Assembly: GCA_003164135.1 (NCBI GenBank)
Contig: PLSD01000028.1
Span: 102,498-166,497 of the forward strand
Length of the DNA: 64,000 bases
Reading direction: 5' to 3'
DNA from: Acetobacteraceae bacterium
GTDB lineage: Bacteria; Pseudomonadota; Alphaproteobacteria; Acetobacterales; Acetobacteraceae
Shown here: piece after piece, positions 9,778-47,423 of the stretch
Layout: the number at the start of each line of letters is the position of its first letter
Numbering within the stretch: position 1 is the stretch's first letter
Position numbers and translations under genes: made by a program
The notes under the pieces: model-generated
Told to the model about the DNA's origin: nothing
Databases searched by the model: none
What the model saw: only the letters and a program-made list of their open reading frames with translations

Positions 9778-9951
9778 TTTTTGCGGTTCCATTATTTGCG
9801 GCTTTCAACGTCCGCACCATCAACGCAGTCATCCCGGCTTCATCGCGCCATACGGTATTTCATTGTTTTTTCGACACAAACCCGCACAGATTGGGGTGCA
9901 AGCTATTTCTTTAGCTTTACAATCAATCCACTACAAAGCGTTCTTCACAAG

Positions 9952-9967
9952 TGTTCCACGTGGAACA
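9952..9967. promoter_or_regulatory. candidate parS (ParB-binding) palindrome TGTTCCACGTGGAACA
   Basis: Perfect 16-bp palindrome identical to a known bacterial parS variant. Confidence 0.75.
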
Positions 9968-40196: not shown

Positions 40197-40769
40197 ATGA
40201 ACCTGAGGCGGCGGGATATTTTTGGCGGTTTGCTGGTGGCGTTGAGTGGGTGCGCCACGCTGGAGGCACCTGGGGCCGGCTTGCCTGCGTTGCCGCCCCC
40301 ACCTGGGGGCCCGTACCAGTTGGGGGCGGGGGATACGCTGAGTATCAGGATTTATAACCAGGCGCAGCTTTCCGGGACGTATCAGGTGGATGACAGCGGC
40401 ATGGTGGATTTGCCGTTGCTGGGGCTGGTGAAGGCCGCGGGGCGGAGTACCGACGGGTTGAGTGCGGCCATTGCCATGGGGTTGGAGGATGGCGGGTTGA
40501 TCCTGCACCCGAGCGTGGCGGTGGAGGTTTCCACCTACCGGCCGTTTTATATTCTGGGTGAGGTGAATACGCCGGGGCAGTATCCATTCCGTCCGGGCAT
40601 GACTGTTCTGACGGCTGTTTCCATTGCTGGAGGCTTCACTTACCGGGCGGAGCAAGGCTATGCCGGAGTTACCCGCGTGACGGGCGGCACCCCTGCCCCG
40701 TATCGCGCAACTCTGTTTGCATTGGCGCAGCCTGGCGATGTCATCACTGTCTACGAGCGCCGGTTCTAG
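40197..40769 (+). CDS. polysaccharide biosynthesis/export (Wza/OPX-like) protein
   Basis: LSGCATLEAP lipobox; YQLGAGDTLSIRIYNQAQLSGTYQVDDSGMVDLPLLGLVKAAGRSTDGLSAAIAMGL; PFYILGEVNTPGQYPFRPGMTVLTAVSIAGGFTYRA. Confidence 0.92.
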   Translation: MNLRRRDIFGGLLVALSGCATLEAPGAGLPALPPPPGGPYQLGAGDTLSIRIYNQAQLSGTYQVDDSGMVDLPLLGLVKAAGRSTDGLSAAIAMGLEDGGLILHPSVAVEVSTYRPFYILGEVNTPGQYPFRPGMTVLTAVSIAGGFTYRAEQGYAGVTRVTGGTPAPYRATLFALAQPGDVITVYERRF

Positions 40770-41913
40770 TGCGCGGCTGAATCTGGCGGCGTTTGCCGGA
40801 GGTTTTGCGACGTTTATCAACATGTGGTGCACGCAGGCGCTGTTGCCGGTGCTGGCGGCGAATTTTCATGTCTCCGAGGCGCAGACGGGGTTGACGGTGA
40901 CGGCGCCGCTGGTGGCAACGGCGATGGCGGCACCGGTGGTTGGGCTGATTTCCGACCGGTTTGGGCGGAAGAAATTCATAGTGGGAGCGGCGGTTTTGCT
41001 GCTGGTGCCGACCATTTTGGCGGCTACCGCGGGAAGTTTTGATGCGCTGGTGCTGTGGCGGTTTGCGCAGGGGCTGCTGCTGCCGTTTATTTTCACCATC
41101 ACCATTGCTTACATTGGCGAGGAGACCAGCGGACCCACGGCGGCGCGGTTGGCGGGGACTTATATGTCCGGCGCGATTTTTGGCGGGTTTTGCGGGCGGT
41201 TGCTGGCGGGGTTGATGACCGCCGGGTTTGGCTGGCGGGCGGCGTTTTGGGCGATTGCGGCGCTGACGCTGGTGTTGGCTGGGGTGATTGCCTGGATGTT
41301 GCCGAAGGAGACCCATTTTAGGCCGCAGTATGGTTTGCGGCGGGCGTTGCGGGCGTTTCCGCTGCATCTGACCAACAAGCGGCTGCTGGCGACTTATGCC
41401 GTGGGGTTTGGGGTGCTGTTTAATCTGGTGGCGATTTTTACGTTTATTAATTTCCGGTTGGCGGCGGCACCGTATTTTTTGGGGCCGGCGGCGCTGGGTG
41501 GGATTTTTGTAGTGTACCTGGGCGGGGTGGTGATGAGCCCGCTGGCGGCGCGGCTGGCCAACCGGTTTGGGCGGCGGCGGGTGATGGCGGTGGCGGCACC
41601 GGTGTGCTGGGCGGGGCTGGGGTTGACGCTGGCAGCACCTTTGTGGGCGATTGGGTTGGGATTGTTGCTGCTGAGTTCAGGGATTTTTATGCAGCAGACG
41701 CTGGGGACGGCGTTTGTGAGCGTGGCGGCGCGGGAGGCGAAATCCACCGCCGTGGGGCTGTATGTGGGGATTTATTATATCGGCGGGAGTGCCGGGGGGA
41801 TGGTGCCGGGCGGGCTGTGGCATGCGTATGGCTGGCCGGGATGCGTGGCGATTGCGTGCGTGGTGCAGGTGGCGATGCTGGGGTGCGCGTTGCGGTATTG
41901 GAAGGTGGCGTAG
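40738..41913 (+). CDS. MFS transporter
   Basis: 12-TM-like; LISDRFGRKKFIVGAAVLLLVPTILA; overlaps upstream gene by 32 bp. Confidence 0.88.
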   Translation: MSSLSTSAGSSARLNLAAFAGGFATFINMWCTQALLPVLAANFHVSEAQTGLTVTAPLVATAMAAPVVGLISDRFGRKKFIVGAAVLLLVPTILAATAGSFDALVLWRFAQGLLLPFIFTITIAYIGEETSGPTAARLAGTYMSGAIFGGFCGRLLAGLMTAGFGWRAAFWAIAALTLVLAGVIAWMLPKETHFRPQYGLRRALRAFPLHLTNKRLLATYAVGFGVLFNLVAIFTFINFRLAAAPYFLGPAALGGIFVVYLGGVVMSPLAARLANRFGRRRVMAVAAPVCWAGLGLTLAAPLWAIGLGLLLLSSGIFMQQTLGTAFVSVAAREAKSTAVGLYVGIYYIGGSAGGMVPGGLWHAYGWPGCVAIACVVQVAMLGCALRYWKVA

Positions 41914-41916
41914 GGG

Positions 41917-41932
41917 TGCTCCACGTGGAGCA
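41917..41932. promoter_or_regulatory. parS-like palindrome variant TGCTCCACGTGGAGCA
   Basis: Perfect 16-bp palindrome differing from TGTTCCACGTGGAACA by one symmetrical pair. Confidence 0.55.
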
Positions 41933-42082
41933 TTTGTGAGGGTTGTGTTATAACGCGTTGTTAGTATAGCTTTATTTTTTGCTTGCACCCCAATTTGTGC
42001 GGGTTTGTGTCGGAAAAGGAATGAGTTGGCGGTTTTGGGGAGGGAGGGGCGGCTTGCGCTGAGCTTATCCGCCCCTCCAAGA

Positions 42083-44242
42083 CTAAAAATTCAACGAATG
42101 TGATGTCTCTTTTAGTTCCGTCCTTGCTAAAGATAGATGTTTAAAAATCTCATTGGCCAGTTCGGCGTAGACATGACGAGCAAAATGTGGCCCACCAAAG
42201 TGGCCGTCATTTGCCAGGTCACCCTCGTTATGAATGAATTTAGTAACCTCAATATAAGCGAAGCCATACTCGTCAACGAGCGGTTTCACAATCCGGTTCA
42301 CTTTGTCAAAGAAATCTAAAATATACGTGTCACGGCCGACGCTATCATTAAGTCCGATAATGATGACTGGCTTACCGTGGCTTTTCAGAAGCGTGAACAT
42401 ATCATGTACGTCACTCATGAAAAGCGCAGGATTAAAACCGCCTATGGAGTCGAATTCAGCGGCAATGTATGCCCATTGTTCGCGGCTGGTGCCTGCGCTG
42501 ACGATCTTGCTCACCTCATCATACGGCATTTTTGTATAGTCTGGTTTTGCATCAGCATGAGCCCAAGGATTCACGTTAGCATGTCGTAACGGCAATATCA
42601 TGCCCGTTGTTTTAGAACGAAAATAGCCACTAAATGACTCCTGAGAAAGAGAAATGACGTAGGCGTCGGCCGTACCGTTGATAACGTCAGAATCAAATCG
42701 TGTTGTCGGCATGCCAGGTAGATGTTTGATGATCTCCTGATTTTCAGGCGTCTTTATTTCATCGCGTAGCGCGATGATGCGTGGTAGGGAACATATCTCC
42801 CAGCCGTGATAAGCATAGTTGAATTCTTCGATGGTTTTAACCTTTGTACGCAGATATTGCGATGTTACCATCAAGTCGCAGGCTCCTCGGATGCATACGG
42901 TGAGCATCTCATCGCTTGGCACTGCGGCATTATTTTCGTCGGCATCATCAACTACCCTTATCCAGTCGACGTCCATATCGAGATCTGAAACAATAGGCCC
43001 TTTGATGTTCAGACTTGGCCGGCCAATTGTTTTCCAGGCAAATTGCTCAACACCCATATTCAGGGCGCGGCAGGAAAACAGGAAATGCCTAAGATTATCT
43101 TCGTCCCGGCGCCCCGCTATATAGCCGCAAATGCCATAATTTCCAAAGCGATCTGAAACTTTTATGTACTGGGCAAAGGCACCAAAGCGGTTGATTTCTT
43201 TCTGAAATTGAGTTTTTGCTTCCTCAGTATCCTCAGGCCAGCGGTTTTTTGTGAAATTAAGCTGATTGGTGCGGTTAACGAGATCGTGGATACGGGGAAA
43301 CTCATCTTCGATGTCATCGTGAAAACTAATGCGAATGTCACTATTGCGCAAAAATTCCTCGTTATCACCGTTTGCGGCAGATTTCTCGGAGAGCTTTGCC
43401 TCCAGTATCTTGTACCGAGCGAGGCGAGATTTCTTCAGATCAGGCTTGCCGGTAAATTTTGGGTCATCCAACAACGTCGGTAGAATGTCCGGTTCTGCCG
43501 TTTTAAGTTTTGGAACGTAATGCAATGCCTCGTTCAGGTTTAATTTGTTGTCATCGATGAATAAAATAGTTTCTGGGCGTAGCTGGGCGTTTTTGATGAT
43601 ATTTTTGATCATCGCGCCTTTTGGTGAAAATGAAATTTCCGGAAAAACAAAGCTGTCCCAAATCCCAAGTTCAACTAAAGCTTGCTTGGCTTCCTCAAAA
43701 TGATTCTTCGAGCAAATTGCGTTAACAATGCCGCGACTATTTAGCGTTTCGATCATATCTATATTGGATTGGATTGGCGTAATGCCGCCTTCAGTCAAAG
43801 TACCGTTCCAAAAAGTTTCATCCAAATCCCAGATGACAAGGCGGATTCCCTCTTCCTCACCCCCCTCAGCAGCACCTTCAGCAGCACCTTCAGCAGAGAG
43901 ATCAATTTCGTCAACCTGAAGTTTAGTTTCTGCGCGGTACTCGGTCAGAGAAAACCACCAGTCAGGAACATCAACATTCCGCCCAATCAAGGCCAAGCGA
44001 TCGTCAACCTGGATTACGGTATCGAAAAGCCAAAATGGTTGAGCTTTATCATTAAAAATGCGTAGCTTACCCTCTCTAAAAGACCAAGTATGCTCGTGCT
44101 CCGTCCTATAAACTTTTATATTTCCATCGGCACCAAAGTATAATGATTTGCTGAATATTTTCCCTGTGGAGTCTGCCCAAACCCACCTGGAATTCAGAAG
44201 CTTCTCTACGGTAAGAAGCTCATTTGTCGCTTTTATCTGCAT
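42083..44242 (-). CDS. HAD-IIIC / FkbH-like protein with N-terminal extension and SGNH-like C-terminal region
   Basis: RLVIWDLDETFWNGTLTEGG, AICSKNHFEEA, ILFIDDNKLNLNEALHYVPKL, NRTNQLNFTKNRWPED; paralogous to ORF 420-2198. Confidence 0.87.
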   Translation of the reverse strand: MQIKATNELLTVEKLLNSRWVWADSTGKIFSKSLYFGADGNIKVYRTEHEHTWSFREGKLRIFNDKAQPFWLFDTVIQVDDRLALIGRNVDVPDWWFSLTEYRAETKLQVDEIDLSAEGAAEGAAEGGEEEGIRLVIWDLDETFWNGTLTEGGITPIQSNIDMIETLNSRGIVNAICSKNHFEEAKQALVELGIWDSFVFPEISFSPKGAMIKNIIKNAQLRPETILFIDDNKLNLNEALHYVPKLKTAEPDILPTLLDDPKFTGKPDLKKSRLARYKILEAKLSEKSAANGDNEEFLRNSDIRISFHDDIEDEFPRIHDLVNRTNQLNFTKNRWPEDTEEAKTQFQKEINRFGAFAQYIKVSDRFGNYGICGYIAGRRDEDNLRHFLFSCRALNMGVEQFAWKTIGRPSLNIKGPIVSDLDMDVDWIRVVDDADENNAAVPSDEMLTVCIRGACDLMVTSQYLRTKVKTIEEFNYAYHGWEICSLPRIIALRDEIKTPENQEIIKHLPGMPTTRFDSDVINGTADAYVISLSQESFSGYFRSKTTGMILPLRHANVNPWAHADAKPDYTKMPYDEVSKIVSAGTSREQWAYIAAEFDSIGGFNPALFMSDVHDMFTLLKSHGKPVIIIGLNDSVGRDTYILDFFDKVNRIVKPLVDEYGFAYIEVTKFIHNEGDLANDGHFGGPHFARHVYAELANEIFKHLSLARTELKETSHSLNF

Positions 44243-46917: not shown

Positions 46918-47423
46918 TGCGGGCTCCTAAGAAGCGGCGGTTGTATCTGGTGCTGGCGGTGGGGGTGTGTTTGAGCGCTGCAGTGGGGCTGTCGCTGGCG
47001 GCGTTTTCCTCGACGCTGACGTTTTTTTTGTCGCCGCGGGAAGTGGTGGCGAAGGGGCCGGCGGTGGGGTTGAGTTTTAGGCTGGGTGGGGTTGTGCAGG
47101 TGGGGACGGTGGCGACCGTGATTACGGCGGGGATTCCGGTGACGAGTTTCCGGGTGACGGATGGGCAGGCCTCGGTGCCCGTGGTGTTTAGCGGTGTGCT
47201 GCCGGATTTGTTCCGCGAGGGACAGGGCGTGGTGGCGATTGGCGCGATGAACGCGGATGGGCAGTTTGCGGCCGATGAGGTGCTGGCGAAGCATGGGTCA
47301 TCGTACATGCCGAAGGATGTTGAAGAGTCGCTGAAGGATGCGGGCAAGTGGAACCCGGCGTATGGGCCGCCGCCGGATGCGAGTACGTGGAATACCATGC
47401 AGGTGAAGGGGAGCGGCTCGTGA
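46917..47423 (+). CDS. ccmE: cytochrome c maturation protein CcmE
   Basis: KKRRLYLVLAVGVCLSAAVGLSLAAFSSTLTFFLSPREV; VVFSGVLPDLFREGQGVVAIG; ADEVLAKHGSSYMPKDV. Confidence 0.95.
   Translation: MRAPKKRRLYLVLAVGVCLSAAVGLSLAAFSSTLTFFLSPREVVAKGPAVGLSFRLGGVVQVGTVATVITAGIPVTSFRVTDGQASVPVVFSGVLPDLFREGQGVVAIGAMNADGQFAADEVLAKHGSSYMPKDVEESLKDAGKWNPAYGPPPDASTWNTMQVKGSGS

Follow-up and report, generated by a model that had tools for sequence, protein, structure and literature searches.

Most of the chromosomal parS sites mapped in other bacteria fall within the origin domain (PMC7022226, PMC7333895), which counts against any reading in which such sites are scattered. Why parS clusters near the origin, and what follows where it does not, is an open question in chromosome segregation. 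Ectopic parS can be harmful. In Bacillus and relatives, many sites along the chromosome, of the NBS type (TATTTCCCGGGAAATA), serve Noc, a protein of the ParB family. Pseudomonas aeruginosa ParB binds many half-parS sites genome-wide, and a ParB reservoir has been proposed (PMC10419367). Short extragenic repeats that bear palindromes and lie at gene 3' ends, such as ERIC, REP, and RIME, form a further class of comparable sequences.

We analyzed a stretch of 64,000 nucleotides (the window), which comes from contig 31 of a draft Acidocella genome of 4.4 Mb (G000, the window genome), and compared the element found there with these systems. The element shares with chromosomal parS the 16-bp palindrome class TGTTNCACGTGAAACA, the variant present beside parB, and a single canonical ParB with parS-type residues. 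It differs in being dispersed in about 16 to 36 copies at gene 3' ends, at a fixed spacing to a second dyad and a box, both of which are lacking at the parB-adjacent parS. As with Noc, sites are many and chromosome-wide, but they are parS rather than NBS, they are accompanied by extra conserved blocks, and the window genome encodes no second ParB paralogue (one HTH_ParB match). The P. aeruginosa half-sites resemble it in that ParB would likewise sit at many places distant from the origin; however, those are common 7-mers, whereas the Acidocella sites are full palindromes within a dedicated, selected element. Unlike ERIC, REP, and RIME, the element shows block-wise purifying selection, retention at orthologous genes, and a parS core that tracks the parB-adjacent parS. 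We found no account of it in the open-access literature, which also held nothing relevant on Acidocella repeats or Acetobacteraceae parS; subscription journals were mostly outside that search.

A composite element with two copies in the window

Each of the two copies joins a 32-bp box to a parS-type palindrome across a gap of 48 nt (Table 1). In copy 2 the gap (41933-41980) holds an A/T tract and a TAAC-N5-GTTA dyad; copy 1 has the same layout, with the dyad degenerate. The first-pass annotation had given the coordinates and sequences of copy 2 exactly, and its description of two oppositely oriented copies with the same box and identical spacing was borne out. At up to three mismatches, the box matched twice in the window (0 expected from 100 shuffles) and the palindrome four times (0.73 expected), the two additional palindrome matches (at 47209 and 60042) having three mismatches each and no box. 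A REP-like inverted repeat, GGCGGCTTGCGCTGAGCTTATCCGCC, was seen near 42050-42076, between the copy 2 element and the adjoining cassette.

Table 1. Features of the two element copies and their neighbors in the window
Feature	Sequence	Position	Strand	Remark
parS-type palindrome, copy 2	TGCTCCACGTGGAGCA	41917..41932	.	variant class of the parB-adjacent parS of close relatives
TAAC-N5-GTTA dyad, copy 2	TAACGCGTTGTTA	41951..41963	.	18 nt from the palindrome
32-bp box, copy 2	CGACACAAACCCGCACAAATTGGGGTGCAAGC	41981..42012	minus (42012-41981)	
Outer end motif, copy 2	TCATTCCTTTTC	42013..42024	minus	conserved across the profile of 92 copies
Entire element, copy 2 (from palindrome to outer end motif)		41917..42024	minus	covariance model match, 133.7 bits
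Gene A of copy 2, MFS transporter gene (PF07690)		40717..41913	+	stop codon 3 nt before the palindrome
719-aa gene		42083..44242	minus	low GC (0.45); faces the copy 2 box end
Entire element, copy 1		9860..9967	+	
32-bp box, copy 1		9872..9903	+	one substitution
parS-type palindrome, copy 1	TGTTCCACGTGGAACA	9952..9967	.	

Across the window genome, the box (up to three mismatches) was found 33 times, against 0 for a reversed control pattern. A covariance model recovered 36 full or end-truncated elements on about 27 contigs, and the recurrence of box and palindrome at the same spacing in these roughly 36 copies supports the earlier view of them as one composite element. Five congeners, including A. 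aquatica, had 16 to 20 copies each by the same model, those of A. aquatica being spread over about 16 contigs with a total length above 2.5 Mb. Copies sharing a contig were never less than 20 kb apart (P about 0.008, with the threshold picked after the data were seen). In the GTDB collection, the exact box core occurred in 50 contig stretches, every one of them from A. aquatica NBRC 112502, from MAGs assigned to Acidocella sp., or from two MAGs that carry just the label Proteobacteria. The full element was present in 6 of 38 Acidocella genomes, and six more had one to four weak partial matches; none of 386 other genomes sampled across the class had an element match at E 1e-4. ParB identity to that of the window genome was 91-94% in the other element-bearing species and at most 69% in other Acidocella. 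On these ParB identities, the six element-bearing species form one group.

The element is about 110 bp long and has a fixed order, namely parS palindrome, 18 nt, TAAC-N5-GTTA dyad, A/T tract, 32-bp box, and a 12-bp end motif, which takes the alternative form TCGTTGTTTTTT in other copies. In total, 92 copies align without gaps over 118 columns, the box core GCACAAATTGGGGTGCAAG being the most conserved stretch. Between orthologous copies, identity was 98.2% in the box core, 93.5% in the A/T tract, 93.0% in the palindrome, and 91.7% in the end motif, compared with 69-77% in the spacers and 59% in the flank outside the element. Because the box core and palindrome are so much more alike than spacers and flank, the element is under purifying selection, in blocks. 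The palindrome, for which conservation in relatives had been proposed as a check, is conserved. Changes in its arms are frequently paired (C-G 64 and T-A 18 at one position pair, 52 and 28 at another), and such compensated changes exceed expectation within genomes, in keeping with the selection on the dyad symmetry that the first-pass annotation had deduced from the two window copies. The TAAC-N5-GTTA dyad also covaries within genomes. Copies of the window genome are more alike among themselves (0.80) than are orthologous pairs that include this genome (0.73-0.76). A decaying copy downstream of the MFS gene in A. aquatica (L259) has a broken palindrome; its dyad, TAAC-TATCC-GTTA, is still visible, as is a hairpin in the box whose G-C pairs are compensated.

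The palindrome as a probable parS, and two classes of site

The 16-bp palindrome matches the parS consensus. In all six species of the clade, parB has a palindrome about 15 bp from its stop codon, and in all six this site is also the commonest variant among the scattered palindromes: TGTTTC (TGTTTCACGTGAAACA) in the window genome, TGCTTC (TGCTTCACGTGAAGCA) in A. aquatica, and TGCTCC (as in copy 2) in the other four. The sole HTH_ParB protein of the window genome carries R173, N178, and G201, which are the parS-type specificity residues in the numbering of Jalal et al. 2020 (PMC7383237). Given this agreement between scattered and parB-adjacent sites, together with the retained specificity residues, the palindrome most probably functions as a parS, and its original description as a parS variant stands. 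The scattered palindromes of the window genome are mixed, however, with about half TGTTTC and the remainder other variants, and since its copies are homogenized, the match to the parB-adjacent site could stem in part from gene conversion or from shared mutation bias. Six aligned copies in other species have the center CCCGTG instead of CACGTG, which may weaken ParB binding. The recognition helix of ParB also differs among the clade species (VHINNT, GHINNT, GHIGNV, and GHIGNT), in approximate parallel to the parS variant, over few independent changes.

The parB-adjacent parS and the scattered elements both have the outer motif AAAAAACAACGA, at a similar distance from parS (about 82 versus 80 nt), and the covariance model matches the parB-adjacent site weakly (E 0.006-0.01). 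It is possible that the two are of common origin, the parB-adjacent site perhaps being the ancestor of the element.

Outside the element-bearing clade, TAAC-N5-GTTA was found near 21 of 28 scattered parS-like Acidocella sites, most often 20 nt off, and beside none of the 26 parB-adjacent sites; its background rate was 0.003 per window of equal size. In 854 kb of the window genome, only 2 of 29 such dyads fell outside elements, with truncated and variant copies counted as elements. Because the dyad accompanies scattered sites and never the parB-adjacent ones, scattered parS and segregation parS are two classes. On the sequence comparison, the dyad is genus-wide and the 32-bp box is an addition made by the element-bearing clade. 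In two copies (L021, at C27:11097 of the window genome, and L106 of A. aquatica), the palindrome is extended to a near-perfect dyad of about 30 bp, CTCACAAGTGTTTCACGTGAAACACTTGTGAG.

Gene ends and the proposed chromosome-wide role

The gene on the palindrome side (gene A) runs into the element in 83 of the 92 copies that have a called gene there, its stop codon being 3-20 nt away from the palindrome as a rule. On the box side, the neighbor is most often a convergent gene (57 cases); these directions come from our own simple gene calls, so that exceptions may be miscalls. For most copies, gene A is orthologous across species. The genes are functionally diverse and of housekeeping type, including rpsO, glmS, recR, cmk, dut, a kdsA-like gene, amtB, and a SpoU methylase, and this diversity argues against a regulon. 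We accordingly rejected a regulon of adjacent genes, as the genes A had no common function. At the MFS gene of copy 2, orthologous loci have kept the element in three relatives (G011, G016, and G023), the A. aquatica copy is degraded, and the more distant Acidocella lack it. A gain is seen at ettA, where only the window genome, among the relatives compared, has a copy; the relatives lack the element there, their whole intergenic region differs, and neither a clean empty site nor a target duplication was found. The idea that neighbors changed through recombination between copies was unsupported, as box-side genes of the window genome almost never recur on the box side of other copies.

We place roughly even odds (a probability of about 0.5) on the following interpretation: the sequences form a parS-centered nucleoprotein element, scattered over the chromosome at gene 3' ends and mostly between convergent genes. 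The sole ParB of the cell would nucleate on each scattered palindrome, and two further putative DNA-binding factors would join it, a genus-wide one on the dyad and a clade-specific one on the box, such that each copy would hold a defined protein assembly. The elements may thereby hold or load ParB, and perhaps SMC, which is present in the window genome, at intervals along the whole chromosome. The purpose might be nucleoid organization or division control, as with Noc but using ParB itself. Gene ends would perhaps be favored in that a stable assembly there leaves promoters undisturbed.

A fuller version, which we advance tentatively as possible rather than probable, is that a centromere site has been turned chromosome-wide, with ParB, a dyad partner, and a box factor assembled at gene ends roughly every 120 kb, as a system, Noc-like or SMC-loading, that lacks a duplicated ParB and would, in one species, also mark the storage of defense genes. 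If true, Acidocella would be a natural case of full parS sites selected chromosome-wide, with partner motifs separating them from segregation parS, in which ParB loading, SMC loading, and nucleoid organization could be studied apart from origin segregation. The low-GC defense genes at the element could also link chromosome architecture to the settlement of foreign genes.

Transcripts, cassettes, repeats, and the origin

The position next to gene A would also suit an RNA element, in which the palindrome folds into a stable hairpin (tetraloop ACGU) and the box into another (CUUGCAC/GUGCGGG), and the hairpins end, protect, or process the gene A mRNA, ParB being irrelevant. We regard this as unlikely, although several features agree with it. 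In most copies the palindrome follows the 3' end of gene A, 3-20 nt from the stop codon; stems extend outward in many copies; a few changes in the box hairpin are compensated (L113 and L259); and the center sometimes reads CACGG on the gene A strand, as expected of a loop. Of 19 inner-pair cases in imperfect palindromes on that strand, 18 had G-U and one had A-C, but a mutation bias of about 3:1 (C-to-T over G-to-A), estimated by hand from spacer column counts on the gene A strand, predicts most of this excess and leaves a residual P of a few per cent, so that the strand test is no longer decisive. An intrinsic terminator has a GC-rich hairpin followed directly by a U-run; no U-run follows either hairpin and there was no terminator match. 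Folding was not clearly better than that of shuffled sequences (z -0.7 to -1.8), covariation in the box hairpin was not significant, and Rfam gave no gathering match in the window and one chance match at a relaxed threshold. The RNA reading also leaves the match of the scattered variants to the parB-adjacent parS unexplained.

In the window genome, 13 of 32 copies had low-GC DNA, often with defense-related genes, within the first 2 kb outside the box (window 42083-44242, L289, L292, L294, L299, L301, L302, L308-L312, and L320). Among 1-kb bins drawn from the box side, palindrome side, and farther DNA of element copies only, those below 0.52 GC numbered 20 of 64, 0 of 68, and 5 of 364, respectively (P 5e-14). 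The cargo included a type IIG restriction-modification enzyme with specificity subunit, an Mrr nuclease, an AriA/GajA-like ATPase, a GmrSD/NsnA-like protein, a D12 methylase, and several unknowns. The 719-aa gene beside copy 2, apparently an insertion, had weak HAD-like similarity and no PADLOC match. At several genes, relatives carry the element without a cassette, which indicates that the element preceded the cassette. These observations would fit a site-specific landing site, at which a recombinase or transposase recognizes the box and cassettes of 1-3 kb, with many restriction genes and further defense genes, insert at the box end. We think this quite improbable: cassettes were absent in four of the five relatives and occurred only twice in A. 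aquatica, neither an integrase nor a common cassette end motif was found, and the box is no less intact beside a cassette than where none is present. Moreover, as the palindrome abuts a stop codon, insertion would be possible on the box side only, and the far ends of several cassettes have REP-like palindromes instead of a shared end. These palindromes (CCGTCATGCCGGCGTTCGCCGGCATCCACG and CCCCACCGTCATGCCCCGCGAAAGCGGGGCATCC) were observed in the window at about 44.8-45.0 kb, which is 2.8-2.96 kb past the copy 2 box end, and at L295, L298, L302, L308, L310, L311, and L319.

We give little credence to the reading of the element as an extragenic repeat (ERIC-, REP-, or MITE-like), dispersed by transposition in the past, whose parS-like palindrome is incidental. 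Many extragenic copies at gene 3' ends, a copy number that varies between species, the copy at ettA in the window genome only, and the homogenization of copies within that genome are what such a family would produce. A decaying repeat, however, would diverge evenly along its length, and here divergence was uneven (98%, 93%, and 69-77% identity in box core, parS, and spacers), with conserved blocks amid diverged spacers and flank. Copies are retained at orthologous genes, and the palindrome variant follows the parB-adjacent parS, both of which speak against it. At ettA, where the whole intergenic region differs, neither a clean empty site nor a target duplication was found.

Copies that are ordinary origin-proximal parS sites, as the first-pass annotation implied, can practically be dismissed, as a parS-variant sequence and the window's skew change are outweighed by the spread of about 36 copies over some 27 contigs (about 16 contigs and more than 2.5 Mb in A. 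aquatica), the distance of the window from parB, and dispersed copies whose clade-specific box exceeds an ordinary parS. The annotation had taken an inversion of GC skew as a candidate origin with the boxes arranged divergently around it. The sign change near 38-39 kb is real; as a mark of the origin it failed, since parB, its parS, and the DnaA-box-like sites of this genome are on another contig, C55. That contig matches a 370-kb parB contig of A. aquatica (G009 C67, L270-L288), to which no part of the window matched over 400 bp or more (E <= 1e-30). Along the 370-kb contig the sign of the skew switches about five times, and the change in the window is therefore no evidence of an origin; skew seems to follow blocks of gene direction, not replication alone. 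We rejected the element as an origin marker on the same grounds, with skew flipping often and the window not near parB. The divergent arrangement likewise lost its footing, as element orientation follows the upstream gene, whose 3' end points toward the palindrome. Gene A was on the skew-defined leading strand in 26 of 35 copies, a count that says little because skew follows gene blocks. The parB-adjacent parS is followed by the DnaA-box-like sites TTATCCACA, TTATGCACA, and TTGTCCACA (L040 on C55 of the window genome; L239, L240, L241, and L243), and this region is perhaps oriC.
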